The position numbers and the translations under genes are program-made. Source: a virus. Taken from it: 21,361 nucleotides of DNA. The stretch covers positions 1 to 21,361 of the IMG/VR virus record IMGVR_UViG_3300020578_004289; one strand, written 5' to 3'. The notes beneath the pieces are model-generated. The model was not told where the DNA came from and did not search any database. It saw only the letters and a list, made by a program, of their open reading frames with translations. Positions 5,462 to 21,065 of the stretch are shown piece after piece (the first letter of the stretch is position 1; every line of letters begins with the position of its first letter).

Positions 5462-5997
5462 AAGGGGAGTTTTTTATCCCAATTTATATTTGGGGGAAGT
5501 TCTGAGTCAAAATGAATTGTTCCATTCTTTGGTTGGGGGGATGGGGATATATCCCCATTAATTATTTTTTTATAGTTTTCTATAAATAATATTTCTATTT
5601 CATATTTTAATCTTTCATAGGATGTTCTTAAGGTGTTTTCATTAGGTTTAAAGGTAATTTGTTTTTGAATAAGAATATCTCCTGTATCTATTCCTTCATC
5701 GATTAAATGAATAGTTACTCCTGAGGGGGTTTTTTCTTGGAAAGACCAATAATTAGGGCTACTTCCTCTATTGTAGGGTAAATAAGACATATGCAAATTT
5801 ACAAATTTATTTTTCCCCCACTCTAAAATATCTTTTTTAAGTAAATGTTTATAACCAAAACTTATAAAAAAATCATATTTTTTACAAAAATGTAAATCTA
5901 TTTTTTCTTTCCAAGTAGTTACTTTATAACCTTTTTCTTTTAAAAAATTAATTATTAAAGTTTGATTTTCATCATATCCTAAAAATAATATATTCAT
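5458..5997 (-). CDS. Sugar N-formyltransferase (formyl-THF dependent, catalytic domain only)
   Basis: I start this at ATG 5997, which overlaps the NeuB-like stop as ATGA; a GTG four codons upstream is less likely. The 179-aa product carries the formyltransferase core: N67-L-H69 followed by SYLPYNRGSSPNYWSF, then GVTIHLIDEGIDTGDI with D104. Asn, His and Asp are the catalytic triad of N10-formyltetrahydrofolate transferases (Met-tRNA Fmt, ArnA N-domain, sugar formyltransferases such as WlaRD/VioF). Fmt's C-terminal tRNA-binding domain is absent and the N-terminal Rossmann part is short, which argues for a small-molecule amino sugar as substrate. It would place an N-formyl group on an amino sugar in this island. 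Confidence 0.8.
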   Translation of the reverse strand: MNILFLGYDENQTLIINFLKEKGYKVTTWKEKIDLHFCKKYDFFISFGYKHLLKKDILEWGKNKFVNLHMSYLPYNRGSSPNYWSFQEKTPSGVTIHLIDEGIDTGDILIQKQITFKPNENTLRTSYERLKYEIEILFIENYKKIINGDISPSPQPKNGTIHFDSELPPNINWDKKLPL

Positions 5998-7007
5998 ATG
6001 TCTTTCCACTTAATTATACTGTATTGAGGAATATTTTTTTTAGAAGGTTTCCCTAAAATGTCATTTAAAAATTTAGGAGATATTCCATTACCTGGTCTTC
6101 TTAGCCCCAAGTTATCTAATGTAAAAATTTCTCCTTCTTTTATATTTTTTATAGCTGTAATGCTTCTTCTAGCTATTTTTCTCATTTCAATTTCCTCATC
6201 AAGAGGAATTAATTCACCACTACCTAATAAACTTTCAGCTTGCCTTACATTATCTACTAGTTGTTTTAATTCTTTAGGATCAGCAGAAAACCAATGGTCA
6301 GGACCTGAGGAATTTTTATCTAGAGTAAAATGTTTTTCTAAAATAGAAGCCCCGGCTAGTGTTGCCACTTCACATGCTTTCCACCCTTCAGTATGATCAG
6401 AATATCCTATTTTTACATTAAACTTTTTCTTAATAGAAATCATTTTATTTAGGTTAATTTTTTCTAAAGGTGTAGGATATAGTGAAACACAATGAAGTAC
6501 TGTTAAATCTTGACATCCTTCATTTAAAATAGTTTCGATAGCGTCTTTAATTTCTTCTTCATAAGACATTCCTGTTGAAATAATCATTGGAATATTTTTA
6601 GAAGCATAATATTTCATTAAAGGTAAATTAGTTAAATCATCAGATCCTACTTTTAATTTAGATAAATCAGTTATAGAAAGAATTAAATCTAGATCTGTTG
6701 GGTTTTGGGGGGTAGTAAATGCCTCAATCCCTGTTTTTTTACAAAAATCAAATAATTGTTTCCATTCTTCTAAAGTAAATTCTACTCTTTCAAACATGTC
6801 TATTTGAGGTTCTGTTATTGTTTGGCCTTGAGATTGATAAGTATACGTTTGATTTTTGTCTGTAATAAATTCTTGGGCTTTAAATGTTTGAAACTTAACA
6901 GCATCTACCCCACAACGTTTAGCAGTTAAAATCATTTGTTTAGCTAGGTTTAAATCTCCATTGTGATTAATTCCTATTTCTGCTATTATGTATGTTTTAT
7001 TACTCAT
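5994..7007 (-). CDS. NeuB-family nonulosonic acid synthase (sialic/legionaminic/pseudaminic type)
   Basis: This 337-aa enzyme matches the full NeuB layout. A TIM barrel starts AEIGINHNGDL (9-19), followed by AVKFQTF (36-42), KVGSDDLTNLPLM, STGMS, LHCVSLYPTP (171-180), GYSDHT (H205) and EKHFTL (H226), the two metal-binding histidines, and GPDHWFSADP. A C-terminal antifreeze-like SAF domain contains RRPGNGISP (303-311), which covers the active site in NeuB. The family condenses phosphoenolpyruvate with an N-acylated hexose to give a nine-carbon sialic-like acid. The exact product cannot be read from sequence. It overlaps the 114-aa gene by 8 bases and the formyltransferase by ATGA. Confidence 0.88.
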   Translation of the reverse strand: MSNKTYIIAEIGINHNGDLNLAKQMILTAKRCGVDAVKFQTFKAQEFITDKNQTYTYQSQGQTITEPQIDMFERVEFTLEEWKQLFDFCKKTGIEAFTTPQNPTDLDLILSITDLSKLKVGSDDLTNLPLMKYYASKNIPMIISTGMSYEEEIKDAIETILNEGCQDLTVLHCVSLYPTPLEKINLNKMISIKKKFNVKIGYSDHTEGWKACEVATLAGASILEKHFTLDKNSSGPDHWFSADPKELKQLVDNVRQAESLLGSGELIPLDEEIEMRKIARRSITAIKNIKEGEIFTLDNLGLRRPGNGISPKFLNDILGKPSKKNIPQYSIIKWKDI

Positions 7008-7344
7008 TATTTAATATATTTTCTATCTGAGTGGAATAGTGGTTAGATTCTTGGGTTAATGTATTATATTCTTGAGGGAATCCTAGATAGGCTAATTTCA
7101 TCATCTCCATCCACCATCTATTATTTTCTGCTCTAAGTTTTTCTAAATCATCTAAAATTAACTCATATTCTCTTTTATTTTCTAAAGTTAATTCTTCTAA
7201 TAATATAGAAATTTTTTTATCCCATTCATTAACTTTAATTAAAATGTTTTTAGCTTCTTCTGGGGAGTATTTAAAGGCTAATCGAAGTAGGTTAATAGTA
7301 TTAGTATTATTTTTTAATCTAATATGTTCTATTTTTTTATACAT
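7000..7344 (-). CDS. Small helical protein of unknown function (114 aa) beside NeuB
   Basis: The product starts at ATG 7344 and is almost entirely predicted helix: RLAFKYSPEEAKNILIKVNEWDKKISILLEEL reads as two amphipathic helices (written here as positions about 21-52), followed by a long charged coiled-coil-like segment through residue 80 and a WW pair at 77-78. No catalytic motif is present. It overlaps the NeuB-like gene by 8 bases and follows the methyltransferase by 4, so its product is probably made in step with the synthase. It could be a scaffolding or accessory subunit, but nothing in the sequence proves it. Confidence 0.65.
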   Translation of the reverse strand: MYKKIEHIRLKNNTNTINLLRLAFKYSPEEAKNILIKVNEWDKKISILLEELTLENKREYELILDDLEKLRAENNRWWMEMMKLAYLGFPQEYNTLTQESNHYSTQIENILNNE

Positions 7345-7348
7345 AATT

Positions 7349-7990
7349 TTATTTGGTTAATAAAACACTTAATTCACTATTGCCTATACAATCATTTCCG
7401 TGATGTAATCCTATTTTTACTCTTTTAATTGATTTAAATCCAATTTTTTTAGATATATTTTCAAATTCATCATAACTAATTAGAAATAAATCCCATTCAT
7501 TAGGAACCCAAGTTTCTTTATCATAATTATGAAACATTAAAAGTTTACCATTATCTTCTAAGGAATCATATATTTTTTTCATAATTAATTCTATATCATT
7601 TAATGAATTCATATACATTAAAACTCCTCCTATGAATACTTTAGTAAATCTTTTTTTAAAGTTTATATCTGGGAGGATACAGTATGTGGATTTAATGTTG
7701 AGTAAATTATTATTTTGAATCCACTCAGTAAAAATATTTAAAGCATATTCATTGGCTTCAAACATTTCTAAATACGAAGGATTACATTCTTGGATAATAT
7801 ATTTTGACTGATCCCCAGTACCTCCTCCTATATCTGCAACTGAATCAGTAGGGGTAATATCCAAATAAAATGTTACATCTTTAGCAATAGAATTATATAC
7901 TTCATCAGGATAAGACCCTCTTCCATGAATTGCTTTATTACTTGATCCAGAATTCCAATATCCGATCCATTTTTCATTTCTCTTTTTCAT
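7349..7990 (-). CDS. Class I SAM-dependent methyltransferase
   Basis: The 213-aa protein has a clear motif I, VADIGGGTGDQS (51-62), in a Rossmann-type methyltransferase fold, then an acidic ribose-binding residue in EMFEANEYAL and KVFIGGVLMYM as motif IV. The first 45 residues (KWIGYWNSGSSNKAIHGRGSYP) are an N-terminal cap common in methyltransferases of polysaccharide clusters. It could methylate a sugar hydroxyl or amine, or a carboxylate. It begins 73 bases beyond the probable original end of the aminotransferase gene and directly after a remnant repeat, so this junction has been rearranged. Substrate unknown. Confidence 0.75.
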   Translation of the reverse strand: MKKRNEKWIGYWNSGSSNKAIHGRGSYPDEVYNSIAKDVTFYLDITPTDSVADIGGGTGDQSKYIIQECNPSYLEMFEANEYALNIFTEWIQNNNLLNIKSTYCILPDINFKKRFTKVFIGGVLMYMNSLNDIELIMKKIYDSLEDNGKLLMFHNYDKETWVPNEWDLFLISYDEFENISKKIGFKSIKRVKIGLHHGNDCIGNSELSVLLTK

Positions 7991-8063
7991 AACTTTTAGT
8001 TTTTAATAGTTTATATTTTAAATTCATTTGTTTTGGTTCATCTGCTATAAATACTAAATCCTA
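7991..8063 (-). pseudogene. Remnant coding fragment between methyltransferase and aminotransferase
   Basis: Below the aminotransferase gene, the minus strand reads DLVFIADEPKQMNLKYKLLK in one frame directly after a TAG at 8061-8063, with no start codon in a suitable place. This closely repeats DEPKQINLKYKLL inside the aminotransferase. The frame runs out in a TGA just inside the methyltransferase gene. It looks like debris from a duplication or from replacement of a related gene's 3' end and is unlikely to be translated on its own. Confidence 0.5.
8003..8043. repeat. 41-bp direct repeat, copy 1 (intergenic)
   Basis: This stretch matches 8199-8239 at 39 of 41 positions in the same orientation, 196 bp apart (mismatches at 8009 and 8025). 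The other copy lies within the aminotransferase coding sequence; this one lies in the gap before the methyltransferase. Translated on the minus strand, both encode DEPKQ-I/M-NLKYKLL. Confidence 0.85.
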
Positions 8064-8085
8064 ATGATTTATCCAATATTTATCT

Positions 8086-9045
8086 CTAGTACATTCTTTC
8101 ATATAAAGGTAAATTAACTATTTTTGGGTGTAATTGTTCTGTGTTAGGTAAAGAACAATCTTTATAATATAGAGTTTTATGGAGTAAAGGATAATGTGTT
8201 AATAATTTATATTTTAAATTTATTTGTTTTGGTTCATCTATTATTAAAGTAGCAAAATAATATGAAGAATTAGGGTCATGTTTTAAAAATCTACCTTGAA
8301 ATTTATCTTGAATAAATTCAAAAGTTTTAATTCGATTTAAAAGATTAACATCATACATTCTAAAACTTTCTAGAGCAATAGTAGCACTTAAATTATTCAT
8401 ATAAAATTTAAATCCTTCTTGAACTATATCATAACTTTCATTAGTTAGTTGACGACCAAAATTTTTATAATTCTTAAAGTACTCAGCTGCTTCTTTTATA
8501 TTTGTTGAAAGCATTCCTCCATCTGGGCTACAGATTGGTTTTGTGGGGTGAAATGAAGTAAATATAAAATCACCTTTTATTGTTGGGTGAGGACAATGAG
8601 CAGCATCAATAACAACTATTTCATCACCTCTTAATTTCCACCCAGGGATATTACTTACACCTCCATACAAAATAGGCATTACTATATTTTGGTTACTATC
8701 AGTTCTTTTTTTTAAATAATCTTCACAGTCAAATAAAAGTTCATCGTTAACATCTACAAATATAATATTATGTCCGAAATGCTTTGCAGCCCAAACAGGA
8801 GAAGAAAAGGTTAATGAAGGAGTATAAACGTTACATTTACCATATTTTTCTTTTAAGTATGCAAAAATCATAAAAGCAGCGGCCGAAGCTGAATTAGTAG
8901 CTATATTGTATTCTTTATTGCTGTAGTGTTTAAAAGCGTTTTCAAATACTTCTACATTTGGCCCAAACCCCATATTCCCAGATTGGATAAGTTGAGAAAT
9001 ATTATTTAGGGCAGTTGAAGAAAAAGTATGTTCTAATGTTTTCAT
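8086..9045 (-). CDS. DegT/DnrJ/EryC1-family PLP sugar aminotransferase, frameshifted C terminus
   Basis: I start this at ATG 9045 (MKTLEHTFSS); a TTG eight codons upstream would overlap the dehydratase. The 319-aa product has the fold-type I aminotransferase motifs of the family: GFGPNVEVFENAF, ATNSASAAAFM, VIDAAHCP (D147, PLP N1 partner) and SFHPTKP with the Schiff-base lysine K169, then DGGMLSTN. It would transaminate the 4-keto sugar made by the adjacent dehydratase, as PseC does. The product ends NLPLYERMY at TAG 8086, but removing one base would read on as ERMTRDKYWINH to TAG 8061. That fits family C termini (LPLYERMT...), so a one-base insertion probably removed about 10 residues. Probably still active, not certain. 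Confidence 0.82.
   Translation of the reverse strand: MKTLEHTFSSTALNNISQLIQSGNMGFGPNVEVFENAFKHYSNKEYNIATNSASAAAFMIFAYLKEKYGKCNVYTPSLTFSSPVWAAKHFGHNIIFVDVNDELLFDCEDYLKKRTDSNQNIVMPILYGGVSNIPGWKLRGDEIVVIDAAHCPHPTIKGDFIFTSFHPTKPICSPDGGMLSTNIKEAAEYFKNYKNFGRQLTNESYDIVQEGFKFYMNNLSATIALESFRMYDVNLLNRIKTFEFIQDKFQGRFLKHDPNSSYYFATLIIDEPKQINLKYKLLTHYPLLHKTLYYKDCSLPNTEQLHPKIVNLPLYERMY
8199..8239. repeat. 41-bp direct repeat, copy 2 (inside aminotransferase gene)
   Basis: This is the coding copy of the 41-bp repeat, identical to 8003-8043 except at two positions. It encodes part of the C-terminal domain of the DegT-family protein. The distance between copies, 196 bp, is one more than a multiple of three. 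Confidence 0.85.
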
Positions 9046-9046
9046 A

Positions 9047-10021
9047 TTAACAAGATAATCCTTTTTCAATTAATTTAATTAATTCTTCAATATCTTCTTT
9101 TACCCACAATAATGAATTAAATTCAGGACCTGTATATTTTTTAAAGTCTTGGAACTTTTTATTTGTATATTGCGGTCTAATTTGAAGTAGATTCATATCA
9201 GTTACTTGGTATGTGAAATCCAATTCTGTTTTAGCTAACATATCTTCATGAAGTTTTTCTCCAGGTCGAAGCCCCATTAATTCAGTTTTAGGTTCCTTAT
9301 TCAACATTTTTCCTAATGCTTTGATACAAGTAGGTAATGTGTATGAATTAATTTGAGGAACAAATACTTCACCTCCAACCGCGTGTTCTAAAGCACCTAA
9401 TACTGTGTCAACAGCATCATCTAAAGTGAATAAAAATCTAGTCATTGCTTCTGAGGTTACTTTTAATGTTTGGTTATCATTAATCATATCAATCCAAAGA
9501 GGAATAAATGATCCGCGAGATGCAATTACATTTCCATATCTAACAGATGCAAATGTAGTTGATGTAGAATGATAATCATAGTTTGTAAAAATACGTTCAG
9601 CAATAAATTTACTTGAACCATACACATTCACAGGTTGGCAAGCTTTATCAGTTGAAACTAAAATACATTTTTCAATATTATTTTCTAAAGCTGCTCTAGC
9701 AACGTTTTCAGAACCATTAATGTTTGTTTTAACACATTCATCTGGGTAGAATTCCATATCGTCTATTCTCTTTAAAGCAGCGGTATGGATAATATAGTCA
9801 GGTTTATAGCGTTTTAGAGTTACATTTAATTTATTAAAATCTCTAATATCTCCTATTACTCTAATTACAGTTGGGTCGTTTCCAAATTCTAACGCTTGTT
9901 TACCTTCATCTCTACTATAAACAATTATAGTACAGTTAAATCGTTTTAAACGTTTAATAAGCGCTTTTCCTAATGAACCGGTACCTCCGGTAATTAATAT
10001 TGTTTTGTTTTTATAAATCAT
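9047..10021 (-). CDS. NDP-sugar 4,6-dehydratase, PseB/FlaA1-like (inverting type)
   Basis: This 324-aa short-chain dehydrogenase begins MIYKNKTILITGGTGSLGKA; TGGTGSLG (11-18) binds NAD(P). AALKRIDDMEFYPDE (81-95), STDKACQP (123-130) and YGSSK (134-138) are the hallmarks of UDP-GlcNAc 4,6-dehydratases of the PseB/FlaA1 group, where the catalytic residues are in STDK and Y-xxx-K. PGEKLHE near the C terminus is also typical. Reaction expected: UDP-GlcNAc to a UDP-4-keto-6-deoxy-AltNAc type sugar, the first step toward pseudaminic acid. The stop lies 1 base before the aminotransferase start, matching the PseB-PseC pairing. Related capsule dehydratases share these motifs, so the exact product is inferred. 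Confidence 0.85.
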   Translation of the reverse strand: MIYKNKTILITGGTGSLGKALIKRLKRFNCTIIVYSRDEGKQALEFGNDPTVIRVIGDIRDFNKLNVTLKRYKPDYIIHTAALKRIDDMEFYPDECVKTNINGSENVARAALENNIEKCILVSTDKACQPVNVYGSSKFIAERIFTNYDYHSTSTTFASVRYGNVIASRGSFIPLWIDMINDNQTLKVTSEAMTRFLFTLDDAVDTVLGALEHAVGGEVFVPQINSYTLPTCIKALGKMLNKEPKTELMGLRPGEKLHEDMLAKTELDFTYQVTDMNLLQIRPQYTNKKFQDFKKYTGPEFNSLLWVKEDIEELIKLIEKGLSC

Positions 10022-10042
10022 GTATTAAATATATTAAAAAAA

Positions 10043-11257
10043 TTACTGTAATGCAAGTTTTTTTAGTTCTTTTACTATTCTTTTTGAAGCATTAAAGTCA
10101 TTAAATTCATCAAAAAGTTTTAATAGTTTATTATTGTTTGGTTTTTCTTGAAGAAGAAAATCTAAATTAAAATCATAATTTAAGGTAGATTTTTTTACAA
10201 TTTCTAAAAAATAATTAATATCTTTTTTAAAATATTCAATTCTATCTAAATTTATAAACTTAATTAATTCATCATGAGTTTTAAATCCATGAACACCCAT
10301 CCAAAATTTAGCAGAATCTTCTACTCCTATTCCGGATTCATTTAAATATTGTTTTAAAGATAAATCTAAATCTAAATATGTAAGGATATTATCAATATTA
10401 ATTATTTTTTTATCTAAAAGTAAAGGTAGATGAATTATTGAACCTACAGGACCTATATGAACATCACATATATTAATTAAAGGATATAAATCTAAATTAT
10501 CATAAATTACTTTAACATTATCATATAAAAATGGAAAAAACTGATGTTTAAAGTTATCATGATAAGGTTCCCCAGGGTATGGTTTAAAAAATATTTCATA
10601 TTTAGAATGGTCAATTTTATCAATTAAATTTTTTAAACAATTAAACATTTCATTTCTAGAAGATGTAATTATACTATAAAATAAAATTTGGGTTTTGTTT
10701 TTATCTATATTATATTTTTTATAACAATATTCTTTATTAACTTTTAACAAGTCATCACATTTTGGATTACCCGTTATTATTGATTTAGAAGTATCAAACC
10801 CAGACTTATTACGTTGAGTTTTAGTAAATTTACTATGTTCAAAATACAGATCAATTTGATTTTGAGGATATTTAGTTCTTGAATGCATTTCAAGAATTGT
10901 TTCTATATTATTGATAAGCATAGTATTAACCTCAACCATTGTTACTTTACAATTCCATTTCGATTTGAATTCATGAATAATAGATTGTTCAGGTTGCCAA
11001 CAATCTCTTTGAATTAAAAGAACATCAGGTATAAAAGGTAAAGAAACATTTAATGAATCACTCCAAATTCCCCCCCAGTTATTTTCGGGTATGTTAGAAT
11101 CATAAACAAATTTATCAAGATTATGAGTTGGGAATTGTAATTGGGTTTCTTGGGAATATAAGAAAAAATAATTAAAGTTAGTATTTTTTAATTCTCTAAC
11201 TATATTAATTACAGAAGCTACTCCTTTACTGTCCGAAGCAAATATTACAACATTCAT
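10043..11257 (-). CDS. GT-B-like protein of the sugar island (glycosyl/glycerophosphotransferase-like)
   Basis: I start this at ATG 11257, which overlaps the preceding stop as ATGA; a further ATG four codons upstream is also in frame. The 404-aa protein looks like a two-domain GT-B fold: an N-terminal half with FLYSQETQLQF and PDVLLIQRDCW, a linker ITGNPKCDDLLK, and a C-terminal half with IFFKPYPGEPYHDN and VHIGPVGSIIHLPLLLDKKII. The last parts resemble the donor-binding region of CDP-glycerol glycerophosphotransferase and UDP-GlcNAc 2-epimerase-like proteins. It could be a transferase, or it could fill the missing PseG/NeuC-type UDP release step. Specific function is not established. Confidence 0.6.
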   Translation of the reverse strand: MNVVIFASDSKGVASVINIVRELKNTNFNYFFLYSQETQLQFPTHNLDKFVYDSNIPENNWGGIWSDSLNVSLPFIPDVLLIQRDCWQPEQSIIHEFKSKWNCKVTMVEVNTMLINNIETILEMHSRTKYPQNQIDLYFEHSKFTKTQRNKSGFDTSKSIITGNPKCDDLLKVNKEYCYKKYNIDKNKTQILFYSIITSSRNEMFNCLKNLIDKIDHSKYEIFFKPYPGEPYHDNFKHQFFPFLYDNVKVIYDNLDLYPLINICDVHIGPVGSIIHLPLLLDKKIINIDNILTYLDLDLSLKQYLNESGIGVEDSAKFWMGVHGFKTHDELIKFINLDRIEYFKKDINYFLEIVKKSTLNYDFNLDFLLQEKPNNNKLLKLFDEFNDFNASKRIVKELKKLALQ

Positions 11258-12000
11258 AATCCAACCCATTTTTTTAATTGTTCATAAATACTATCAGGAT
11301 GATATGTTGCGTTTTTATCTACTCCATGGCTGCTGAATACATCATTCCAAAAATGTATAGCATGTATATTTTCTTGGATTTGAAAATCATTATTTGGAAT
11401 AAGTAGTTTGTTTGCTTCCCACCAATTAATAGACATAAATACTCTATAATCTTTTACATATTGTTGTAAATTATGTTGAGCTATAGTTTTTCTAACTAAA
11501 GAAGGACCTATGTCTCCCCATCTAATACTTGTTTTATCTTCAAACGATTCACAAAAATCAACACAATATTTTATAGCATCACATTCTTTTGGATATTTTT
11601 GAACACCTGAGGTTGCTTCTTGTTCTCCTCTATGGGTGTTTTCAGCTGCAAATACATATGGGGCTTCAAAATCAAATGGTTTAATACAAATAATATCTGT
11701 GTCAACCCAATACCCACCTTCTTTTTCCATCATTTTAAATCTAAAATAATCAGAAAATGCTCCTAATGATCCTGGTCTTCCATTACTACCAGGAGCATAA
11801 AAAATATCTTTTTCGGGGACTATCTTATTGGCATCTTCTAAAATAATCCCTTCAGGCAAATTTTCAATATCATTGTAGACATATAAGTGATAAGGATGTT
11901 CATTTAGTATAAATGACTTAATTGAAAGTATTTCTAAATTAGATAATTTATTACCTACCCATAAACTACCTACTCGTTCTAAATTATTGTTTATTTCCAT
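11254..12000 (-). CDS. GT32-like DXD glycosyltransferase
   Basis: This 248-aa protein has the hallmark of the DXD sugar-transferase family (Gly_transf_sug/OCH1-like): AFSDYFRFKMMEKEGGYWVDTDIICIKPF (described as positions 81-109), with SD at 83-84, the GGYW turn and D100-x-D102 as metal and sugar-nucleotide site. NIHAIHFWN near residues 215-223 matches the conserved His-Trp end of the family. These enzymes use a nucleotide sugar and Mn2+ to extend glycans. The start overlaps the second FkbM gene by 10 bases and the stop overlaps the GT-B-like gene as ATGA. Donor and acceptor unknown. Confidence 0.8.
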   Translation of the reverse strand: MEINNNLERVGSLWVGNKLSNLEILSIKSFILNEHPYHLYVYNDIENLPEGIILEDANKIVPEKDIFYAPGSNGRPGSLGAFSDYFRFKMMEKEGGYWVDTDIICIKPFDFEAPYVFAAENTHRGEQEATSGVQKYPKECDAIKYCVDFCESFEDKTSIRWGDIGPSLVRKTIAQHNLQQYVKDYRVFMSINWWEANKLLIPNNDFQIQENIHAIHFWNDVFSSHGVDKNATYHPDSIYEQLKKWVGL

Positions 12001-12587
12001 TTTTCAAAATTTAGGTGATTTTTAGATGATATAACTTTTAGGATTTCATCTTCTCTTTTTTGCATTTCATTATTATTAGTAAACATAATACTATGAAATT
12101 CTACATAAAGATGTTTGATGTAATCTAAAGTATCATGTTTTATAAAGTCTTCTAAAATATCATATTCTGCCCCCTCTACATCTAATTTAAGTACTATATT
12201 ATCATCTTTTGAAAAATTTTCAATAAATTCACGTAAACTAATACAATCTACTTCTATAGTTATATTAAAATTTTTAGGACCTGTTCCAGCCGTTGGATTC
12301 CAAGTATCTAAAGACATAATAGAACTTCCCATCCCTATTAGACCTTCTCCGGGACGGTTATCTATGTTAAAAGTAACAGTATTGTAATGAGTACTTACAG
12401 CATTATTATAATATTTTATGTCATTTTTAGCAATAAAATTATGATTTAGTTGAGTAAAAAATTGGAGGGTGTAAGGATTTGGTTCAAATGTGTATATATC
12501 CCATTCTGGGGTCATATTAAACATTTGGTAAAATTCTTGGAGTCCTTGACCTAGGTGTGTTCCACAATCTATATAAATATTTTTCAT
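11991..12587 (-). CDS. FkbM-family methyltransferase (second copy)
   Basis: I use ATG 12587, which overlaps the previous gene's stop as ATGA. The 198-aa product has NIYIDCGTHLGQG (SAM-binding motif I, residues 3-15), FEPNPYTL and VLKLDVEGAEYDILEDF, all diagnostic of FkbM methyltransferases. The family O-methylates sugars and other metabolites. It is shorter than its neighbour (198 against 277 aa) and starts directly at motif I, lacking an N-terminal cap. The pair differs clearly in sequence, so recent tandem duplication is unlikely. It probably acts on a sugar hydroxyl in the island's glycan, but that is inference. Confidence 0.8.
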   Translation of the reverse strand: MKNIYIDCGTHLGQGLQEFYQMFNMTPEWDIYTFEPNPYTLQFFTQLNHNFIAKNDIKYYNNAVSTHYNTVTFNIDNRPGEGLIGMGSSIMSLDTWNPTAGTGPKNFNITIEVDCISLREFIENFSKDDNIVLKLDVEGAEYDILEDFIKHDTLDYIKHLYVEFHSIMFTNNNEMQKREDEILKVISSKNHLNFEKWK

Positions 12588-13417
12588 AAATATGTGTTTA
12601 TGCAAATTAAATTATGCCCTGAATTAGGGTTTATGTCTGCTACTGATTTGATTTCTTTTCCTAGGTTATCTAAATCTAAATTATTTATTTCTTCATCATA
12701 TGCTTTATAACCTAATGAATGAATGATATCAAGTAAATCAGTTATTTCATTTGAATTTAAACCATTATATATTTCAGTAATTAAAATCGGTTTATGAGTT
12801 GTGATAGTATTTATAAGGGTTTTTAAAATATCTTTATCATGGCCTTCAGCATCTATTTTAATAAGAGAAATATTTCCAACCTCAACATTATTTTCTTGAA
12901 TAAATTTTTCAAAATTAATAGCCCAAACATCAATTGGAATTTTATGTCCTGTTACTCCTACACCAAATTGAGTACGTGTAGCAAATCCTCCATTGCAAAA
13001 TCCATAATCTGAATAATGAAATGTTAATGGGCCTTCTTCATCTGAGATAGCATAATTAAAGGGGATTATGTTGGGGTTTAATTCAGAATTTTTTTTAAGA
13101 ACTTCAAATGTTGCTGGGTTGGGTTCAAAAGAAATAACTTTATCTGCAAATAATGAGTATGCTACAGACATATTCCCAGCTTGGGCCCCAATATCAATTA
13201 CAGTACTGTTTGGGGTAATGATTTTTGAAAGATTATTAAGAATTTTTTTATTAAATAATGCTTTTATTTCCCAATCTCCTTGCCAAGGATGCATCCATCT
13301 ATGGTAATTAATCTCTTTATCTTCTATTTTTAAATTAATAATTTGAGTAGGATAATGATTATTACTTTGTTTTAATACTTCAAGAACTTGAGTTCGATAA
13401 TCATTTACTTGGTGCAT
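12584..13417 (-). CDS. FkbM-family methyltransferase (first copy, with N-terminal cap)
   Basis: The 277-aa protein starts at ATG 13417. A cap of about 70 residues precedes motif I, VIDIGAQAGNMS, followed by ISFEPNPATFEVL and SLIKIDAEGHDKDIL, the FkbM signature (acidic residue then EGxD/E). The cap may select the acceptor. It overlaps the 54-aa gene by 13 bases at its start and the second FkbM gene by ATGA at its end, so all three are probably translated from one message. The methyl acceptor is unknown; family members methylate polysaccharide sugars. Confidence 0.8.
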   Translation of the reverse strand: MHQVNDYRTQVLEVLKQSNNHYPTQIINLKIEDKEINYHRWMHPWQGDWEIKALFNKKILNNLSKIITPNSTVIDIGAQAGNMSVAYSLFADKVISFEPNPATFEVLKKNSELNPNIIPFNYAISDEEGPLTFHYSDYGFCNGGFATRTQFGVGVTGHKIPIDVWAINFEKFIQENNVEVGNISLIKIDAEGHDKDILKTLINTITTHKPILITEIYNGLNSNEITDLLDIIHSLGYKAYDEEINNLDLDNLGKEIKSVADINPNSGHNLICINTYL

Positions 13418-13569
13418 TTTTTTAAATTTATAAATTCTCTAACAACTTTACCTAAATCAGCATCATTAGAATATTTTTTAACAAACATTTCTATAACTTC
13501 TATTCTTAAAATTTCATGCTTTTCTTTATAATATTCGTTCTCTAAATCAATATAGGTCTCATTTTTCAT
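13405..13569 (-). CDS. Small ORF in glycosyltransferase operon, 54 aa
   Basis: This is a short frame from ATG 13569 to TAA 13405 (MKNETYIDLENEYYKEKHEI...). It is charged and mostly helical, with no motif. The support is positional: its start overlaps the GT2 stop as ATGA and its end overlaps the FkbM start by 13 bases, so it occupies an otherwise empty 150-base gap in the operon. Function unknown. Confidence 0.55.
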   Translation of the reverse strand: MKNETYIDLENEYYKEKHEILRIEVIEMFVKKYSNDADLGKVVREFINLKKCTK

Positions 13570-14189
13570 AATGTGTTATAATAATTATTTTGTTTTTCTT
13601 GACGATCAATTGTTTTTGGATGGTGTAAACACCATTCCTCTTCAGGAGGTAAAGATGATAAAAAATTATGCCCTTGCAATACTTCGTGTACTTTATTTTC
13701 CCATTTAATTTCAGGTTTATTTTTCCAAATACGCCATTGGTAATCTGGGAAGTTAACCCATCCATCATTAGTTACTCTCCATCCCCATTTTGCAATATGT
13801 TCAGGGGTTAATCCATCAACTGTATTAATTCGAGGAACTAATAGCACGTCAACATTTGGGTTGCTGTCTATAACATCTGGTAGATGTTCTAGTAAGGTTT
13901 TAGTAGGGATTTCATCAGCATCAATTTGAAAAATATAATCTCCACTACAAAAACTGGTTAATTTGTTTTTCCAATCAGCAAAATGGTTATTGAATTTATC
14001 TTTATACCAAGCAAACTCACCATTTATAGAATGAGTTCGCAGAAAATTTTCCACTTCGGGGTCACCATTTGCTTCATCATATAAAATCACAATGTTATCT
14101 TGTTGTCGTTTATATTGAAGTAAAAAATTTACTAAACGTTGAATTTCTACAAATTCATTACAAACTGTAATTGCATAACTTATTTTCAT
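13566..14189 (-). CDS. GT2-family glycosyltransferase, short form
   Basis: This 207-aa protein begins MKISYAITVCNEFVEIQRLV, the start of a GT-A family 2 core. FQIDADEIPTKTLL contains D90-A-D92, the metal and nucleotide site. WRIWKNKPEIKWENKVHEVL (residues about 153-172) matches the W-x-K...VHE acceptor-side motif of the SunS-like/GT2 group. It lacks any membrane segment, so it acts in the cytoplasm. It starts 19 bases after the 160-aa gene and is coupled to the 54-aa ORF. Donor and acceptor unknown. Confidence 0.8.
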   Translation of the reverse strand: MKISYAITVCNEFVEIQRLVNFLLQYKRQQDNIVILYDEANGDPEVENFLRTHSINGEFAWYKDKFNNHFADWKNKLTSFCSGDYIFQIDADEIPTKTLLEHLPDVIDSNPNVDVLLVPRINTVDGLTPEHIAKWGWRVTNDGWVNFPDYQWRIWKNKPEIKWENKVHEVLQGHNFLSSLPPEEEWCLHHPKTIDRQEKQNNYYNTL

Positions 14190-14208
14190 AATATTTTAGT
14201 ATATTAAA

Positions 14209-14691
14209 TTATTTTTGAGGTTCCAAATTTGCTTCAAAAACTCCAATATAATCTAAGGCTTCAATATAATCACGTTCATGAAACCTTTTCATATTTGGCA
14301 TATCCATTTTATATTCCATAAATTCTCCTGGTTTACCAGGGATAGGATGTTTTTTTTGGTCTTTTTTAGATAATTTAATTGCTTTAACAGCTGCCCATTG
14401 CCAATTTTGGGCATTATTTCCATTAGCAAATACCATACCTTTTTCTTTAATGTTAATATTGTTTGGAATCCATATTAAATCTGTGTTTGGGTCTTTCCAA
14501 GCTAAATCTTTATATAATTCAGGTAGAATTTCCATTTGTAAATTGTAAAATTCTTCTCCCTCTTTCATTAAACTATTAGACCAAAATCCACAAGATAAAC
14601 TTAGGTAATTTGATATATCTGGGGTGACTTGTGTTTTGTAACATAAATCTCCTCCTGATTTAGGACAATTTATTATTTCTTCGTACTGCAT
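14209..14691 (-). CDS. Unknown protein between glycosyltransferases, 160 aa
   Basis: The product opens MQYEEIINCPKSGGDLCYKT, with two Cys at 9 and 17, followed by TPDISNYLSLSCGFWSNS, which carries a third Cys. The body is rich in Trp and aromatic residues (LAWKDPNTDLIWIPNNI, NNAQNWQWAAVKAI), suggesting a compact globular fold and perhaps nucleic-acid or glycan contact. No catalytic motif is recognised. The start overlaps the GT4 stop as TAATG, so it is probably coupled to that enzyme. I think it is a conserved phage family but cannot name one. Confidence 0.65.
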   Translation of the reverse strand: MQYEEIINCPKSGGDLCYKTQVTPDISNYLSLSCGFWSNSLMKEGEEFYNLQMEILPELYKDLAWKDPNTDLIWIPNNINIKEKGMVFANGNNAQNWQWAAVKAIKLSKKDQKKHPIPGKPGEFMEYKMDMPNMKRFHERDYIEALDYIGVFEANLEPQK

Positions 14692-15983
14692 TATGCTTCT
14701 ACTTTTTTAAGTTTAGGTAATTCAATTTTATTTAATTTAGGTAAATTTAGTTGAACCTGTTTTGGAAATTCAGGAATTTTTTCCTCAAATAATTTACCTA
14801 ATTTTTCTTTCATAGCATCAAATGAAAATTTTGTTCTTGATTGAAATCCTTGACGTTTTGCTTTATCAGCATATCCTTTATAATTTTCAAATACATCTTT
14901 TAAATAGTGTCCTACATGACCTGTATCAACTGAAAACCATTCTGCTTCTGCTAATAACATATTATTTGCGGCACTTGGGTGTACTTTAGTTAAAGCACCA
15001 GGCAATAGTGTTACAAATTCAGGATTTAAATAATCAATATGACCACTCCAATTTGTTGTAATAATTGGTTTATTTACAAGTGAAAACTCGAGTAATGGAC
15101 GACCAAACCCTTCACCTTTAGTTAAGTTAACCATTGCTTTAACTTTAGGATGATTGTAAATTTGATTCATTTCCTCGTCTGTAAATTCACCATGTAACAA
15201 ATAAACGTTTGGTAAATTGTGTGATTTGCAAGTATCTTTAATTGCTTTAATTCGTTTTAACAATTCATCTCTATCCATATAAGAGGATCCTACTTGAGAT
15301 GTTTTTAATATTAAAGCTGGCTTTTTAGATTTATTTTTAAAAGTTTCATAAAATGCTTTAACAAGTAATCCTACATTTTTCCTATCTTCACCTATTTGTC
15401 CTTGCATCCAATGACCTACAAATAAATAAGCAAATTCTTCTTTAATTAAAGATAAATCAAAATTTGATTTTACAGATTTATACTTTTCAATATCTGCACC
15501 TTCAAATATAATTTCACTATCTCCTTTCCATTCAATTAATCCTACTGATTGGTTTGTTCTTTGATCACGTTTTTCAAATTTACTGTTTTTAAGCACGTCA
15601 ATTGTGTGTTTTGAGGAACCTAAAATTAAATTCATACGTGAACAACCCTCAATCCATTCAGCAGGTGCTACAGTTGTTTCAATTCCTGCTGTACAACCAA
15701 TGTTATATTTTCCAATTGGTTGAAATTCATTTGGAACTGTAATTTGCATCCAAATTTCTGGTTGAGCTGGTAATTGGGGTGAATTTAATAGGTATGAATT
15801 TAGAAATGACCATTCCGGATTATCTTTAATAAATCCTTTTGGTGTTGCGCCCCATCGTTGAGGTAAAATTTTAACTTCGTATTTGTCTAGCTCAATAATT
15901 GCTTTAACAATATCTCTAGAACGTGCTCCATAGCCACTGTACGTATCGATCGCACAACTTATTACAAAAACTGGTTTGCTCAT
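14691..15983 (-). CDS. GT4-family glycosyltransferase (430 aa)
   Basis: This retaining GT-B enzyme starts at ATG 15983 (MSKPVFVISCAIDTYSGYGARSR, a nucleotide-sugar/acceptor Rossmann start with Ser-Gly-Tyr-Gly). The donor domain contains YLLHGEFTDEEMNQIY and NLTKGEGFGRPLLEFSLVNKP, the E-x7-E motif of GT4/GT1-type enzymes. A Pro/Lys/Leu-rich tail (LNLPKLNKIELPKLKK) follows. It is the second gene of the island, 4 bases after the first GT4. Base composition and codon choice resemble the other phage genes here. Acceptor could be a virion protein, cell envelope or DNA; nothing distinguishes these. Confidence 0.8.
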   Translation of the reverse strand: MSKPVFVISCAIDTYSGYGARSRDIVKAIIELDKYEVKILPQRWGATPKGFIKDNPEWSFLNSYLLNSPQLPAQPEIWMQITVPNEFQPIGKYNIGCTAGIETTVAPAEWIEGCSRMNLILGSSKHTIDVLKNSKFEKRDQRTNQSVGLIEWKGDSEIIFEGADIEKYKSVKSNFDLSLIKEEFAYLFVGHWMQGQIGEDRKNVGLLVKAFYETFKNKSKKPALILKTSQVGSSYMDRDELLKRIKAIKDTCKSHNLPNVYLLHGEFTDEEMNQIYNHPKVKAMVNLTKGEGFGRPLLEFSLVNKPIITTNWSGHIDYLNPEFVTLLPGALTKVHPSAANNMLLAEAEWFSVDTGHVGHYLKDVFENYKGYADKAKRQGFQSRTKFSFDAMKEKLGKLFEEKIPEFPKQVQLNLPKLNKIELPKLKKVEA

Positions 15984-15987
15984 AATA

Positions 15988-17427
15988 TTAATATAATAAT
16001 TCGTGTTTAATTGTATCTTCTTTTACTTCATTGCAATTGATTAACTCATATTTTGAGCGTGGAATCCACGTTGAAAATAATTGATCTATCGCGTTAATTG
16101 CTCTAATTCCCATAGCCTCTCCAGTTAACCCTGCTTCATTTACAGCCCAATACCTTCCTGTTTTACCAAGACTATCTCGTATCTCTTTACCTAAAGCATA
16201 TACTTCAGATATACGAGCGGCTGCATCTTCAGCTGTGCATCTATCATCCCAAATGTAAGGTGTTTTAGGTGAACCTTGAATTGAACGATTTGTTGGATAA
16301 ACCGGAAATGCCCAACAACCATGATTTTTTAATCTACCTGTGTGATTTGAAGGTAATTGTGGTGTTGGTTCAAACCATTTTCCATACTCGTCTTCAAATT
16401 TCATTTGATCTTGCATCCCACCAGTTACATTTGCTATAATTACAGTTCCTGCTAAAATTGCCTCTGTTAACGATAGGCCCCACCCTTCATTTGAAGTTAA
16501 TAAAATTTGAGCATCTGCAATATTGTACAACATGTTTAGTTGTTTATGATCTAACTTATTAGTTGAAAAATAAATTGCATTTGGATAATCTTGAAATAGT
16601 ATTTTTCTAACTGCATCTAAATCAGTTCCATGCTCACTTATTACTTCGGTATGTAATACCATAGCACATTTTTGTGCTTTTTCTTTCGGTAATGTATCTA
16701 AAAAATACCTAAACGCAAGCATTGTATCTGGAATTTGTTTACGTCTAATATTTCTTGAATTAAAAAATACTACAAAATCTTTTTCCTCTCCTGAAAATAA
16801 ATGTTTTTTAAATTCATTTAGTTCTTTTACTTCATTTTCATTTTCAATTGGATAAAAATGCTCTTCATTTAAACCATGTGGAACATACTCTATTACTTTT
16901 GTTTTTGCCTTTTCACCTAATACAAGTTCATTTATTAACTTTGTTTGTTTTGAAATTGCTAGTAATGCATCACATGACTCGTAAAATGCTTTGTTGTATA
17001 ACGGCGCTGGATAATCATCCCAGATGTTTAAATAAATGATTGGCATTTGTTTTCTAATTTCGTTTTCAATCATAAACAACCATTCAAAATATCTTGGGTC
17101 TGTGATTAACATAATTGCATCTGGTTTTTCCAAATCAATTAAATGTCTAATTAAATCTGCTTCTCCATATCCATTTACAGGATATAAAAAAACAGATGTA
17201 TCTGTTAGGCCTGTGTTTGTGTTTGTATCTGCTGATAGATCAAATCGTTTTCCAACTTCGGGATGATTGATTGCTCCTGCTACGTTTACCCAATTGAAAT
17301 GTTGAGCTGTGTTTAAAACTAATTCACGTGCTACTGTTGCTACACCCGAGTGTACTCTAATGTCATCACAAATTAATAAGATTTTTTTTCGTTGGTTTTG
17401 AGGTAAATAACCGAATTTTTCTTTCAT
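15988..17427 (-). CDS. GT4-family glycosyltransferase (479 aa), first gene of the sugar island
   Basis: The 479-aa protein starts at ATG 17427. An N-terminal Rossmann domain reads KKILLICDDIRVHSGVATVARELV (about residues 14-37). The C-terminal donor domain has FNSRNIRRKQIPDTMLAF, DAQILLTSNEGWGLSLTEAI (E-x7-E) and AGTVIIANVTGG. These are GT4 features. An insert around residues 370-410 is rich in Pro/Trp. It is preceded by a terminator and an A/T-rich gap of about 70 bases, so this may be the promoter-proximal gene of the island; no convincing promoter was identified. It pairs with the adjacent 430-aa GT4. Confidence 0.8.
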   Translation of the reverse strand: MKEKFGYLPQNQRKKILLICDDIRVHSGVATVARELVLNTAQHFNWVNVAGAINHPEVGKRFDLSADTNTNTGLTDTSVFLYPVNGYGEADLIRHLIDLEKPDAIMLITDPRYFEWLFMIENEIRKQMPIIYLNIWDDYPAPLYNKAFYESCDALLAISKQTKLINELVLGEKAKTKVIEYVPHGLNEEHFYPIENENEVKELNEFKKHLFSGEEKDFVVFFNSRNIRRKQIPDTMLAFRYFLDTLPKEKAQKCAMVLHTEVISEHGTDLDAVRKILFQDYPNAIYFSTNKLDHKQLNMLYNIADAQILLTSNEGWGLSLTEAILAGTVIIANVTGGMQDQMKFEDEYGKWFEPTPQLPSNHTGRLKNHGCWAFPVYPTNRSIQGSPKTPYIWDDRCTAEDAAARISEVYALGKEIRDSLGKTGRYWAVNEAGLTGEAMGIRAINAIDQLFSTWIPRSKYELINCNEVKEDTIKHELLY

Positions 17428-17746: not shown

Positions 17747-18682
17747 TTAGTAGGTTGCAGAACATAAGTGAGTTTTATAGAAAGGACACCACTTGCAATT
17801 ATCATTTATTTTAGGTTGGTGTTCTACTTGTTTAAAACCATTCCAATCAAATGCTTGTTCTATAAATTCCTCTATTGATTTTGTTACTCTATTTAATTTT
17901 ACTTTACCTGCTGCTGGTTTATGAATTTGGACTCGTTTAATAACAAATTGCTCACTTTCAAATATTTTGCGTTTTACAATTAAAAATTCAACTTCAATAT
18001 TTTCTAAAGGTATATTATAAATTTCGGAAAAATACTTTTTGTATGCTATAAGTTGAAATTGTTTGTTTTCATCTGCTTTTTGTTTTTTGTTCCAACCATT
18101 ATATGATGTTTTAATATCTATAATTCTAATTTTATTTGTTGGTTCGTGGTATAAAACAACGTCAATAAATCCTTGAAGTATTACATTTTGGTATTTTGGA
18201 TGTGGTGTTAGTATAATAGGTATTTCACACCCTACTAAATGCCATCCTCGTTTACCAAAATATTTATTTCTATCTTTAGCTAATTCTCTTATAATTTCAA
18301 CTCCATCTTCATAAAATTCTCTAAGTTCTTCTGGGGATACAAAATGTTGGTTATTGTTTAATTTGTATTGTTCTTTGTAAAGTTCTCTCATTTTTTCCTC
18401 TAGCATTTCAGATGTGTTAATTCTGTCTGCTTCTGCTCCGCTTTGCTCATAAAATACAGTTAGATAGTGTTGAAGAGTTTCGTGAAATGCTGTTCCAAAA
18501 ACAGTATGGATTGAAGAAGTAAATTGTTTAAACCCTTCTTTATATTGTAATGACCATTTTTTAGGGCAATCATTAAACATTGAAAGTTGAGAGTAGGAAA
18601 TTGATTTTTGGGTTGCATAGTCAATTTGAGGTAAAGACTTTTCTTTTATTTCCTTTAATATAAAAGGTAACTTTTTCTTCAT
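17747..18682 (-). CDS. PD-(D/E)XK nuclease, RecB/Cas4-like, with Fe-S cysteines
   Basis: I start this at ATG 18682 (MKKKLPFILKEI); a TTG five codons upstream is less likely. The 311-aa product has SYSQLSMFNDCPKKW (29-43, first Cys C39), GTAFHETLQ, GFIDVVL, IIDIKTS (D-x-K catalytic core) and QFQLIAYK, which together are motifs of PDDEXK_1/RecB-B nucleases. C-terminal C296-xx-C299-x7-C307 with C39 forms a four-Cys set like the Fe-S cluster of Cas4 and AddB. It probably acts as an exonuclease or end-processing enzyme in replication or recombination. It starts 14 bases after the T tract of the terminator, so it may have its own promoter or depend on read-through. Confidence 0.85.
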   Translation of the reverse strand: MKKKLPFILKEIKEKSLPQIDYATQKSISYSQLSMFNDCPKKWSLQYKEGFKQFTSSIHTVFGTAFHETLQHYLTVFYEQSGAEADRINTSEMLEEKMRELYKEQYKLNNNQHFVSPEELREFYEDGVEIIRELAKDRNKYFGKRGWHLVGCEIPIILTPHPKYQNVILQGFIDVVLYHEPTNKIRIIDIKTSYNGWNKKQKADENKQFQLIAYKKYFSEIYNIPLENIEVEFLIVKRKIFESEQFVIKRVQIHKPAAGKVKLNRVTKSIEEFIEQAFDWNGFKQVEHQPKINDNCKWCPFYKTHLCSATY

Positions 18683-18684
18683 TA

Positions 18685-18790
18685 TATCAAGATACAAAAA
18701 AAGCCTGCCAAAGGCAAGCTTTCTTGAGAATATCTTGATAGCGATAAAAGTATTCTCTTGCTATAACTAGCAAACGGTCCTAAGCCGTTT
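18685..18790 (-). promoter_or_regulatory. Structured RNA region upstream of nuclease gene, with alternative pairings
   Basis: On the minus strand, in order: AAACGG/CCGTTT stem (arms 18785-18790 and 18772-18777), TTGCTA/TAGCAA stem with a 4-base loop (18758-18773), GAGAATA/TATTCTC stem (arms 18751-18757 and 18726-18732), then the terminator hairpin. A 10-bp inverted repeat TATCAAGATA (18731-18740) and TATCTTGATA (18685-18694) encloses the terminator; its upstream arm shares two bases with the third stem, so these pairings compete. The downstream arm ends 2 bases before the nuclease ATG. It may be an attenuator, a start-site mask or a stable 3' end. Confidence 0.45.
18696..18720 (-). terminator. 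Rho-independent terminator
   Basis: Minus strand: an 8-bp stem AGCTTGCC/GGCAGGCT with a 3-base loop and one G-T pair, followed by a run of seven T. GC-rich for this genome, so it is a convincing intrinsic terminator. It follows the 38-aa gene and precedes the PD-(D/E)XK gene. Confidence 0.85.
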
Positions 18791-18896
18791 CTTTAAATTT
18801 ATTTAATAGTTGATTATTTTTTTCAATTAATTTAAGACGTTTAGCTAAATTGGATCTATTACGCTTTTGTTTGCCCTCTTTTTTTGCTCGTGCCAC
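18780..18896 (-). CDS. Small basic hypothetical protein, 38 aa (GTG start)
   Basis: The frame runs from GTG 18896 to TAG 18780: M-ARAKKEGKQKRNRSNLAK... followed by a short helix ending KFKETA. It is very basic and could bind nucleic acid or ribosome. It begins 7 bases after the stop of the 77-aa gene. No ATG is available in frame, so the GTG start is assumed. The stop codon lies in the loop region of the first hairpin of the structured region. Small and unrecognised, so confidence is moderate. Confidence 0.5.
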   Translation of the reverse strand: MARAKKEGKQKRNRSNLAKRLKLIEKNNQLLNKFKETA

Positions 18897-19921: not shown

Positions 19922-20352
19922 TTTTTTAGAAGTTTTTCTGCTTCTTTTTCATTTAACCCCATGTCATATAGAACTCTTCTAGTTCCACTTTCGCGGAGTA
20001 TATCAATGTACTCTTCTGCTTCACCTAAGCTACATTCAAAATGTTTTGCTACATACTCTACCAATGTAGCAGGCTGTTTCTTGGTTCTTGACTTGATATA
20101 TTTCAAGAACGTTTTTTGTTTTGGAATCATCTCTCTATAAATTTGATATATTTGTTGTTTGTTTTCGTAGGGTATAGTTTGAATATAATTTGCTAACTCA
20201 ATGTAGCGTATATCCATCGATACGTATCGACTAACCATATAGGAGTTCCATTTGTCCCATGAATCTTCCGAAATATTTTCAATGGGAGTTTTATAGAGGG
20301 TGATTTCATTTAACCACCCCCATAAATCTTTTATTTGTTTTTTATTATTCAT
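19918..20352 (-). CDS. Clamp-loader small subunit, T4 gp62-like
   Basis: I start this at ATG 20352; a GTG further upstream overlaps the homing endonuclease and is less likely. The 144-aa product fits the gp62-like clamp-loader A subunit seen in T4-type phages: LWGWLNEITLYKTP, SYMVSRYVSMDIRYIELANYI (N-terminal helices), IPKQKTFLKYIK (the pKkrf.kw-like segment) and a C-terminal helical domain YVAKHFECSLGEAEEYIDIL. With gp44, gp62 loads the gp45 clamp for the phage polymerase. Its stop overlaps the MazG-like start by ATGA. Gene 44, 45 and 43 homologues are not in this window. Assigned by pattern, not by alignment. Confidence 0.6.
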   Translation of the reverse strand: MNNKKQIKDLWGWLNEITLYKTPIENISEDSWDKWNSYMVSRYVSMDIRYIELANYIQTIPYENKQQIYQIYREMIPKQKTFLKYIKSRTKKQPATLVEYVAKHFECSLGEAEEYIDILRESGTRRVLYDMGLNEKEAEKLLKK

Positions 20353-20968
20353 ATTTCCAAATAAAACCTTTTGCTGTTTTTTGTTTATTTCTTGCAACAC
20401 ACTGAATGTCTAAAGGGTTAATTTTTAAGGTTTCTCCTGCTTGTTTAGCAGAATCCCACATTTTAATTAAATTCAATTGTTTATCATATTGAAATATTCT
20501 TTTAGATTTTTTAGGGTGGGGAACACCTGTTCTAGATATAGAAAGTTTAGGGTTAGGTATTCCTTTTTTGGATTTACTTATATTTTGTTTCCATTCTTGT
20601 GTATACATTGGATGTCCTTTTTTTCCATTTGACATATTTTTTCGAGCAATTTCACTTTTTGGTTTTTTTAATTTATTTATATGTTCTTCCGTTAAATCCG
20701 ATAAACCCCCTCCTCCATTGTTTTTATTTTTTAATTTAAAACCCCATTGTTTAAATTGCTCTATCCAATAACATTCCCAAAACTTCCATTCTTCTTTACA
20801 TACTTCATCTATTATTTCTAAATAAACATGTTCGCTCATATTATGTTTGTGAGATATATTTCTTCTATATGGATTATTTGTTTTTCCTACATAAAATGGA
20901 ATATCATCCCCATTATGAATGTAATATATTGCTATTTTTTTTTCGATAACGTTGTTTGGCTTTTTCAT
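20345..20968 (-). CDS. GIY-YIG homing endonuclease with NUMOD3 and NUMOD1 motifs
   Basis: From ATG 20968, the 207-aa product has the GIY-YIG nuclease at its N terminus: IYYI (14-17) and PFYVGKTNNPYRR (24-36) hold the two-strand signature with the conserved Arg, then WECYWIE with the catalytic Glu near 66, and NNGGGG. Residues 107-152 show NUMOD3-like repeats (SEIARKNMSNGKKGHP, SISRTGVPHPK); 157-207 are a NUMOD1-like DNA-binding region (IFQYDKQLNLIKMWDSAKQA). The stop overlaps the clamp-loader start by 8 bases. A frame on the same strand extends the N terminus if one A of an A9 run is skipped, so the true protein may be longer. Confidence 0.82.
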   Translation of the reverse strand: MKKPNNVIEKKIAIYYIHNGDDIPFYVGKTNNPYRRNISHKHNMSEHVYLEIIDEVCKEEWKFWECYWIEQFKQWGFKLKNKNNGGGGLSDLTEEHINKLKKPKSEIARKNMSNGKKGHPMYTQEWKQNISKSKKGIPNPKLSISRTGVPHPKKSKRIFQYDKQLNLIKMWDSAKQAGETLKINPLDIQCVARNKQKTAKGFIWKYE

Positions 20969-21065
20969 CTTCTTGTTCTTTGTTGTTCCAATAATAGTCT
21001 CGGGCACGTTGTTTTTTAACAGCTTGTTTTTCTTCTTCTGTTTGATATTTTTTTAAACGTCCCAT
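20913..21065 (-). CDS. 50-aa ORF, probable N-terminal piece of the homing endonuclease (out of frame)
   Basis: The frame starts at ATG 21065: MGRLKKYQTEEEKQAVKKQR, then DYYWNNKEQEDEK and RYRKKNSNILHS to TAA 20913. It overlaps the GIY-YIG frame around an A9 run at about 20935-20943. With one A removed the frames join, KQRYRKK flowing into IAIYYIHNG. Basic charge and the YY-x-NK pattern resemble N-terminal extensions of phage homing endonucleases. It could be translated with a frameshift, could be a separate small protein, or could reflect a sequencing indel in the homopolymer. Confidence 0.5.
   Translation of the reverse strand: MGRLKKYQTEEEKQAVKKQRARDYYWNNKEQEDEKAKQRYRKKNSNILHS

Follow-up and report, generated by a model that had tools for sequence, protein, structure and literature searches.

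The three hairpins that lie upstream of a PD-(D/E)XK nuclease gene in a 21-kb IMG/VR virus record are, with near certainty, one member of a conserved family of RNAs, recurrent and strongly structured in many large phages, that is undescribed and without an Rfam entry. Within this family the stems change freely in sequence, whereas loop L1 (CUUAGGACC) stays constant, as does loop L3 (UUCGCUACC) in the majority of members, and L1 and the main L3 class are perfectly complementary to a conserved segment of 23S rRNA. The best explanation for this combination of features, to which we assign a probability of about 0.45, is a phage RNA derived from a 3' UTR, acting in trans and pairing with 23S rRNA. 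Such an RNA would be made as the 3' UTR of whichever gene lies upstream, might then be cut down to a small RNA, and its stems would act as a scaffold that displays the two constant loops to the host rRNA. In the subfamily represented here, the terminator would end the RNA, and the nuclease would be transcribed anew from its own promoter.

The window locus and its nuclease gene

The window is the whole stretch of DNA that was analysed (21,361 nucleotides), and all features under study are carried by its minus strand. Hairpin 1 (P1, 18774-18788, ACGG[CTTAGGA]CCGT) contains the constant loop L1 (CUUAGGACC, 18776-18784), and a stretch of the P1 region, CUUAGGACCGUU (18773-18784), is antisense to 23S AACGGTCCTAAG over 12 nt without mismatch. 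Hairpin 2 (P2, 18758-18773, TTGCTA[GTTA]TAGCAA) keeps its pairing among relatives with a varying sequence, as judged by eye in alignment A2, and hairpin 3 (P3, 18726-18757, GAGAATA..TATTCTC) bears the constant apical loop L3, here UCGCUAUC (18737-18744), antisense to the 23S sequence UAGCGA inside GGUAGCGAA (1929-1937). Then comes an intrinsic terminator (AAAGCUUGCC-UUU-GGCAGGCUUUUUUU, 18696-18722), which is kept in relatives, is the sole terminator-like site on the minus strand in the 2 kb scanned, and is where the transcript from upstream would end. An inverted repeat of 10 perfectly matched bp has its upstream arm (TATCAAGATA, 18731-18740) inside P3 and its downstream arm (TATCTTGATA, 18685-18694) before the nuclease ATG (18682-18680). 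The three hairpins, the terminator and the repeat had been reported in a first-pass annotation of the sequence and are indeed present; the overlap of the upstream arm with hairpin 3, given there as two bases, is correct for the stem as it was drawn and larger in fact, as hairpin 3 also pairs CTT with AAG. A 38-aa reading frame with a GTG start (18780-18896), lysine/arginine-rich and belonging to a neighbour-protein cluster of 5 loci (cluster 6), is presumed to be the upstream gene of the RNA; its UAG stop lies inside L1, where a stop codon is also found in 28/202 elements (judged by distance). Fold z-scores are -4.49 for the 191-nt minus strand and -2.24 for hairpins 1-3 alone.

The nuclease gene (17747-18682, 311 aa) matches Pfam PF12705 (E 2.1e-25) and a PHROG exonuclease (E 2.6e-28). 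Its nearest cultured relatives, at 40.7% identity, are found in immuto-group phages of Flavobacterium, so the host of the window phage is probably a bacteroidote. Elsewhere in the window, the minus strand appears by eye to carry an extended series of genes of the sugar/glycosyltransferase, SAM-methyltransferase and NeuB-like kinds (2325-17427), of which the gene at 15988-17427 matches Glycos_transf_1; in Flavobacterium phage immuto a glycosyltransferase block likewise follows the nuclease. The translation of 20345-21007, also on the minus strand, looks by eye like what we take to be a GIY-YIG homing-type endonuclease (YYIHNGDDIPFYVGKT).

Upstream regions were read for nuclease relatives in 80 viral loci, and they present a terminator, then CTTG-N20-TATCTT, then the start codon a few bases on. 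In the window, the putative promoter (18687-18718, minus strand) consists of a -33-like CTTG (18715-18718), a spacer of 20 bases and the -7 box TATCTTGA (18687-18694). A relaxed form of the motif, [ACT]TTG-N19-21-TAnnTT, counted once 24 of 81 regions had been set aside as duplicates, is found in 27/30 distinct element-bearing nuclease loci, in 204/6000 random windows (3.4%), and in 9/27 loci scored as lacking the element, among which L012 and L032 carry variant elements. We take this motif to be of the Bacteroidota housekeeping type, with consensus TTTG-N19-21-TAnnTTTG: it resembles that type by placing CTTG/TTTG-N19-21-TAnnTT before the nuclease ATG, and differs from it by a first element that is usually CTTG and a second that is TATCTTtg-like; the strict consensus had no match at the promoter site of the window. 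The predicted nuclease mRNA would thus probably start at or beside the ATG, i.e., leaderless, and on a two-unit reading the nuclease gene would form a transcription unit separate from that of the hairpin RNA. Terminator and putative promoter are retained in relatives that have no hairpins (L043, L045, L047-L049, L052). An AT-rich inverted-repeat insert (AATCAAATTATTGATT-like) sits between terminator and nuclease start in L028, L031 and L041.

This arrangement had been read as an attenuator or a translation mask of the nuclease, in which the 10-bp repeat would fold over the terminator or the start codon to the exclusion of hairpin 3. On paper such a fold exists (57-nt segment, -27.2 kcal/mol, z -7.3), and the two arms do exclude hairpin 3. 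A repeat as long as 10 bp arises in 3/500 shuffles of the 109-nt segment and in 7/394 tiles of the AT-rich window. However, L001 and L002, which are nearly identical to the window, are alone in sharing the repeat with it, and a helix of at least 9 contiguous pairs between the arms occurs in the window alone among 31 distinct rows (including 8 for which the box was mis-picked, and with L001 and L002 removed as duplicates), most of the others being at shuffle level; two mutually exclusive pairings conserved among relatives were not found in this set. The downstream arm coincides with the conserved -7 box, whose predicted start would leave the two arms in separate transcripts, an arrangement that the first-pass annotation itself had named as counting against its reading, and the element is found away from nucleases, before many other genes. 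Because the repeat is unconserved, its downstream arm is a putative promoter box, and relatives without hairpins keep terminator and promoter motif all the same, both versions of this reading are unsupported and must be judged very improbable.

A family of structured RNAs behind phage genes

Most close relatives have the same hairpins, with their loops, ahead of the nuclease, whereas the gene upstream differs. In a wider search, the pattern TTAGGACCGT-N18..48-TCGCTA was found in at least 120 viral stretches, and a matched control with a reversed L3 in 11, compared with at least 120 for the true pattern of the same length. In total, 308 distinct elements were collected (188 of type II and 120 of type I), counted by a mixed criterion and one per locus. 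The first scans yielded 202 distinct elements, and 189 of these follow a gene on the same strand, at a median of 10-14 nt past its stop, a position which favours the other suggestion of the first-pass annotation, namely that the hairpins are the 3' end of a small RNA processed from the operon upstream. The distance to the upstream stop is at most 60 nt for 95/100 type I and 75/89 type II elements, and promoter-like sites occur downstream of the elements, not upstream. A strict pattern matches exactly once in each of 11/26 long records and not at all in the other 15, and the proteins encoded next to the elements fall into 158 clusters, 109 of which are singletons, with ribonucleotide reductase, terminase and a DsbA-like protein among them.

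A known RNA family was considered and rejected: at the gathering threshold, Rfam 15 gives no match in the window and none on the element in 18 loci, the best sub-threshold score being that of Thr_leader (25.6 bits versus 55 required). One viral contig with a type II element (L193) also contains a permuted tmRNA (4319-4989, minus strand; RF04321, E 8.9e-8). With R1, a type II model trained without the window, the window obtains 22.7 bits (E 0.0021). Control-scan loci obtain up to 19.6 bits in that search, and R1 alone therefore lends modest support; some control-scan loci score 18-21 bits with models R1 and R2. The window has the L1 core, P2, and P3 with the L3 loop, just 3' of a gene, as do other members of the family.

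Two layouts can be distinguished. Type I, to which the window belongs, consists of P1, P2 and P3, the terminator being either P3 or a following hairpin, while type II consists of P1, P2 (a hairpin whose loop is L2), P3, and a tail (AAGUGAGC), mostly without terminator; a T-run is present in 79/105 type I versus 12/95 type II elements. In the type II alignment, 91.5% of cells are paired and 283 cells are changed on both sides, giving a covariation score of 0.797 versus 0.198 in shuffles (reached by 0/500) and 0.043-0.196 in slid controls. For type I, P3 has two-sided changes in 8/9 pairs, and at least 8 pairs enclose L3 in 97/106 elements versus 22.8% of shuffles. The same simple flank-stem test applied to P3 of type II finds at least 8 pairs in 11/96 elements, slightly above the 5.7% of shuffles, and for this stem the alignment covariation is the stronger test. 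Fold z-scores can be unremarkable, for example +0.40 for the element of Pseudomonas phage PA5oct and +0.11 for the type II element of L277.

L2 is invariant in alignment A1, as imposed by the search pattern. A search free of L1 and L2, anchored on L3 and the tail (AAGTGNNC), returned 195 distinct sequences, of which 52 show no hallmark at all and are presumably due to chance. The tail variant AAGTGACC is accompanied by L2 CGGGTGCTG in 6/6 loci (L126, L346, L533, L547, L556, L583), and in L553 both sides are replaced (GCCCAC / GTGGGC). Judged from this in-register covariation, L2 and the tail form a covarying pseudoknot in type II; taken singly against shuffles, the variants are mostly not significant.

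Complementarity of the loops to 23S rRNA

L1 is antisense to 23S 1921-1930 and L3 to 23S 1929-1937. Both segments belong to the helix 69-71 region, an intersubunit site that folds late. The two targets abut and are identical in three Bacteroidota rRNAs, but the order of the loops is the reverse of what a simple antisense would show, and binding, if any, would have to be made of two separate loop contacts. On the preferred reading, L1 and L3 would establish these two contacts in trans, and the pairing would alter the assembly or the use of host ribosomes during infection.

When the 134 first elements were compared with E. coli rrnB, the dominant antisense run was 23S 1913-1937, with no comparable run on the sense strand, a result that is partly circular as the search pattern had fixed 16 bases. 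Less circular searches gave a similar picture: with L2 and L3 as anchors, TTAGGACC was found upstream in 84/108 cases and downstream in 0/108, about half of the 24/108 misses having closely related sequences (TTAGGGCC or CCTAGGACC, for example) and the others looking like chance coding matches; with L2 and the tail as anchors, TTAGGACC was found upstream in 156/197 and TTCGCTAC was present in 125/197. Within 23S 1905-1985, the full 10-nt antisense match of L1 is equalled by 2/20000 shuffles and the 9-nt match of L3 (TTCGCTACC) by 21/20000. A second L3 class (ACGCCATTC / TTACGCCA), antisense to 23S ~1966-1979, i.e., ~40 nt downstream in the same region, is matched as long by 31 and 78 of 20000 shuffles, respectively. 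In 8 of the 44 loci that have no CGCTA, the rRNA match of greatest length is located within 23S 1900-2000, versus 5.1% of shuffles. The longest conserved rRNA match of the window is 12 nt (CTTAGGACCGTT), a length reached by 1/200 shuffles. The extension that follows L1 (TATAGTTA) is only weakly kept. Ranking of predicted duplexes, made without shuffle control, places 23S 1891-1940 windows first for 5/7 elements, and second and third for the other two.

Other observations weaken the link. A third L3 class (GTCGTGCC, or (G)GAGTCGTGCCC), which takes the place of TTCGCTACC on an otherwise unchanged scaffold in ~25 loci (e.g., L424, L429, L437, L440, L490, L496), has a 6-nt match only, which 1694/20000 shuffles reach. 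The nuclease lineage of the window itself contains L3 variants that weaken or break the pairing (TCGCAACC in L004, L007 and L013; TCACTA in L032 and L034; CCGCTA in L012), and some L1 variants (CCTAGGACC) mismatch 23S. In L286, L434, L505, L509 and L525, L1 (CCTTAGG) has a perfect partner within the element (CCTAAGG, P1 region), identical to the word that L1 matches in 23S; this partner is missing from most members. The target sites are moreover structured in mature ribosomes.

A further caution comes from L2 (CGGCUGCUG), antisense to 16S 519-527 (530 loop; 1/1000 shuffles), and from the tail (AGUGAGC), antisense to 23S ~1099-1105 (42/1000 shuffles). Both had been considered as additional rRNA guides and were dropped, L2 being paired with the RNA's own tail; as the two covary as a pseudoknot, their rRNA matches are probably incidental, and the fact that so striking a 16S match is explained by an internal structure illustrates that matches of this type can mislead. 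Pairing of L1 and L3 with 23S rRNA is a plausible candidate interaction. According to a review (PMC7038079), an antisense PNA directed against 23S helix 69 inhibits E. coli, which designates helix 69 as a vulnerable site.

Competing explanations, known systems and cultured carriers

How else could constant loops on changing stems be accounted for? The element could be a structured 3' UTR acting in cis (an mRNA stabiliser, a processing site or a terminator-associated element) or a scaffold for a phage protein, its complementarity to 23S being a coincidence or a relic. Its constant position 3' of a gene, the frequent association with a terminator in type I, the existence of at least three L3 classes, one of them without rRNA match, and the 16S match of L2 that proved to belong to a pseudoknot are all compatible with such a role. 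However, upstream genes are unrelated between lineages and the element is present in single copy, unlike a generic stabiliser; the terminator is mostly missing in type II; and it is jointly improbable that L1, L3 and the second L3 class should all find their match in one 80-nt stretch of 23S. This reading is somewhat less probable than action in trans on 23S rRNA. A small self-cleaving ribozyme or a ligand-binding riboswitch, whose active or binding site would be formed by the invariant loops, might be suggested by the presence of such loops on covarying stems together with the type II pseudoknot, but the window and 18 loci contain no Rfam family that reaches its gathering score, and this result, the inconsistent class of the downstream gene, and the swapping of L3 among unrelated loop sequences make it unlikely.

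A more specific form of the trans-acting reading, which is put forward tentatively, is that of a dedicated ribosome-directed RNA of large phages, in which a compact scaffold would bring its two loops, in permuted order, onto abutting 23S segments of the helix 69-71 region and so delay 50S maturation or retune host ribosomes, and lineages would exchange L3 to address a neighbouring 23S strand. If the pairing with 23S is real, phages would here be directing an RNA instead of a protein against the ribosome, and it would offer a natural antisense handle on helices 69-71; if it is not, the elements still make up a new family of phage RNAs, one that includes a covarying pseudoknot.

Parallels exist with several known systems. 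H/ACA and C/D guide RNAs are likewise structured RNAs with short segments antisense to rRNA; the segments considered here differ in being located in apical or hairpin loops, in permuted order and in phages of bacterial hosts. Phage proteins that bind host ribosomes, reportedly described by Gerovac et al. in 2024, would share with the candidate RNA the targeting of the host ribosome early in infection, and differ from it as proteins. The c4 RNA of P1/P7, a phage antisense RNA, is also phage-encoded and structured, with loops proposed to pair with a target in trans (PMC12197685); c4 has a single mRNA as target, whereas the candidate here is a universal 23S region, and the element is spread over many phage lineages. 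The PNAs of Kulik et al., as cited in the review mentioned above (PMC7038079), are equally antisense to the helix 69 area, but they are synthetic single oligomers, in contrast to a natural, structured phage RNA with two permuted loops. In the open-access literature searched, no phage RNA complementary to rRNA, nor any description of the candidate phage RNAs, was found.

Among cultured phages, blastn with the element DNA produced no convincing match, and a genome scan returned 27 stretches, which were rRNA itself or chance. When model R1 was run on 12 cultured or named records, 11 had no match at E<=1, and model R2 gave weak matches on the 12 cultured records (E 0.02-0.7), one of them elsewhere in PA5oct. 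The remaining record, Pseudomonas phage PA5oct, which was found via a neighbouring gene, carries one R1 element (115465-115561, E 6.9e-7), located five bases after the EST35_0189 stop in model coordinates, with L1 beginning just behind the stop (115473). L1 and L3 are intact in this element, L2 and the tail differ, and a terminator follows. The stretch is at least 99% kept in 11 records of the group, including Callisto, MIJ3 and Paride, so that the proposal can be tested now in cultured Pseudomonas jumbo phages. Paride is reported to be closely related to PA5oct and MIJ3 and to replicate on dormant cells (PMC10761892).
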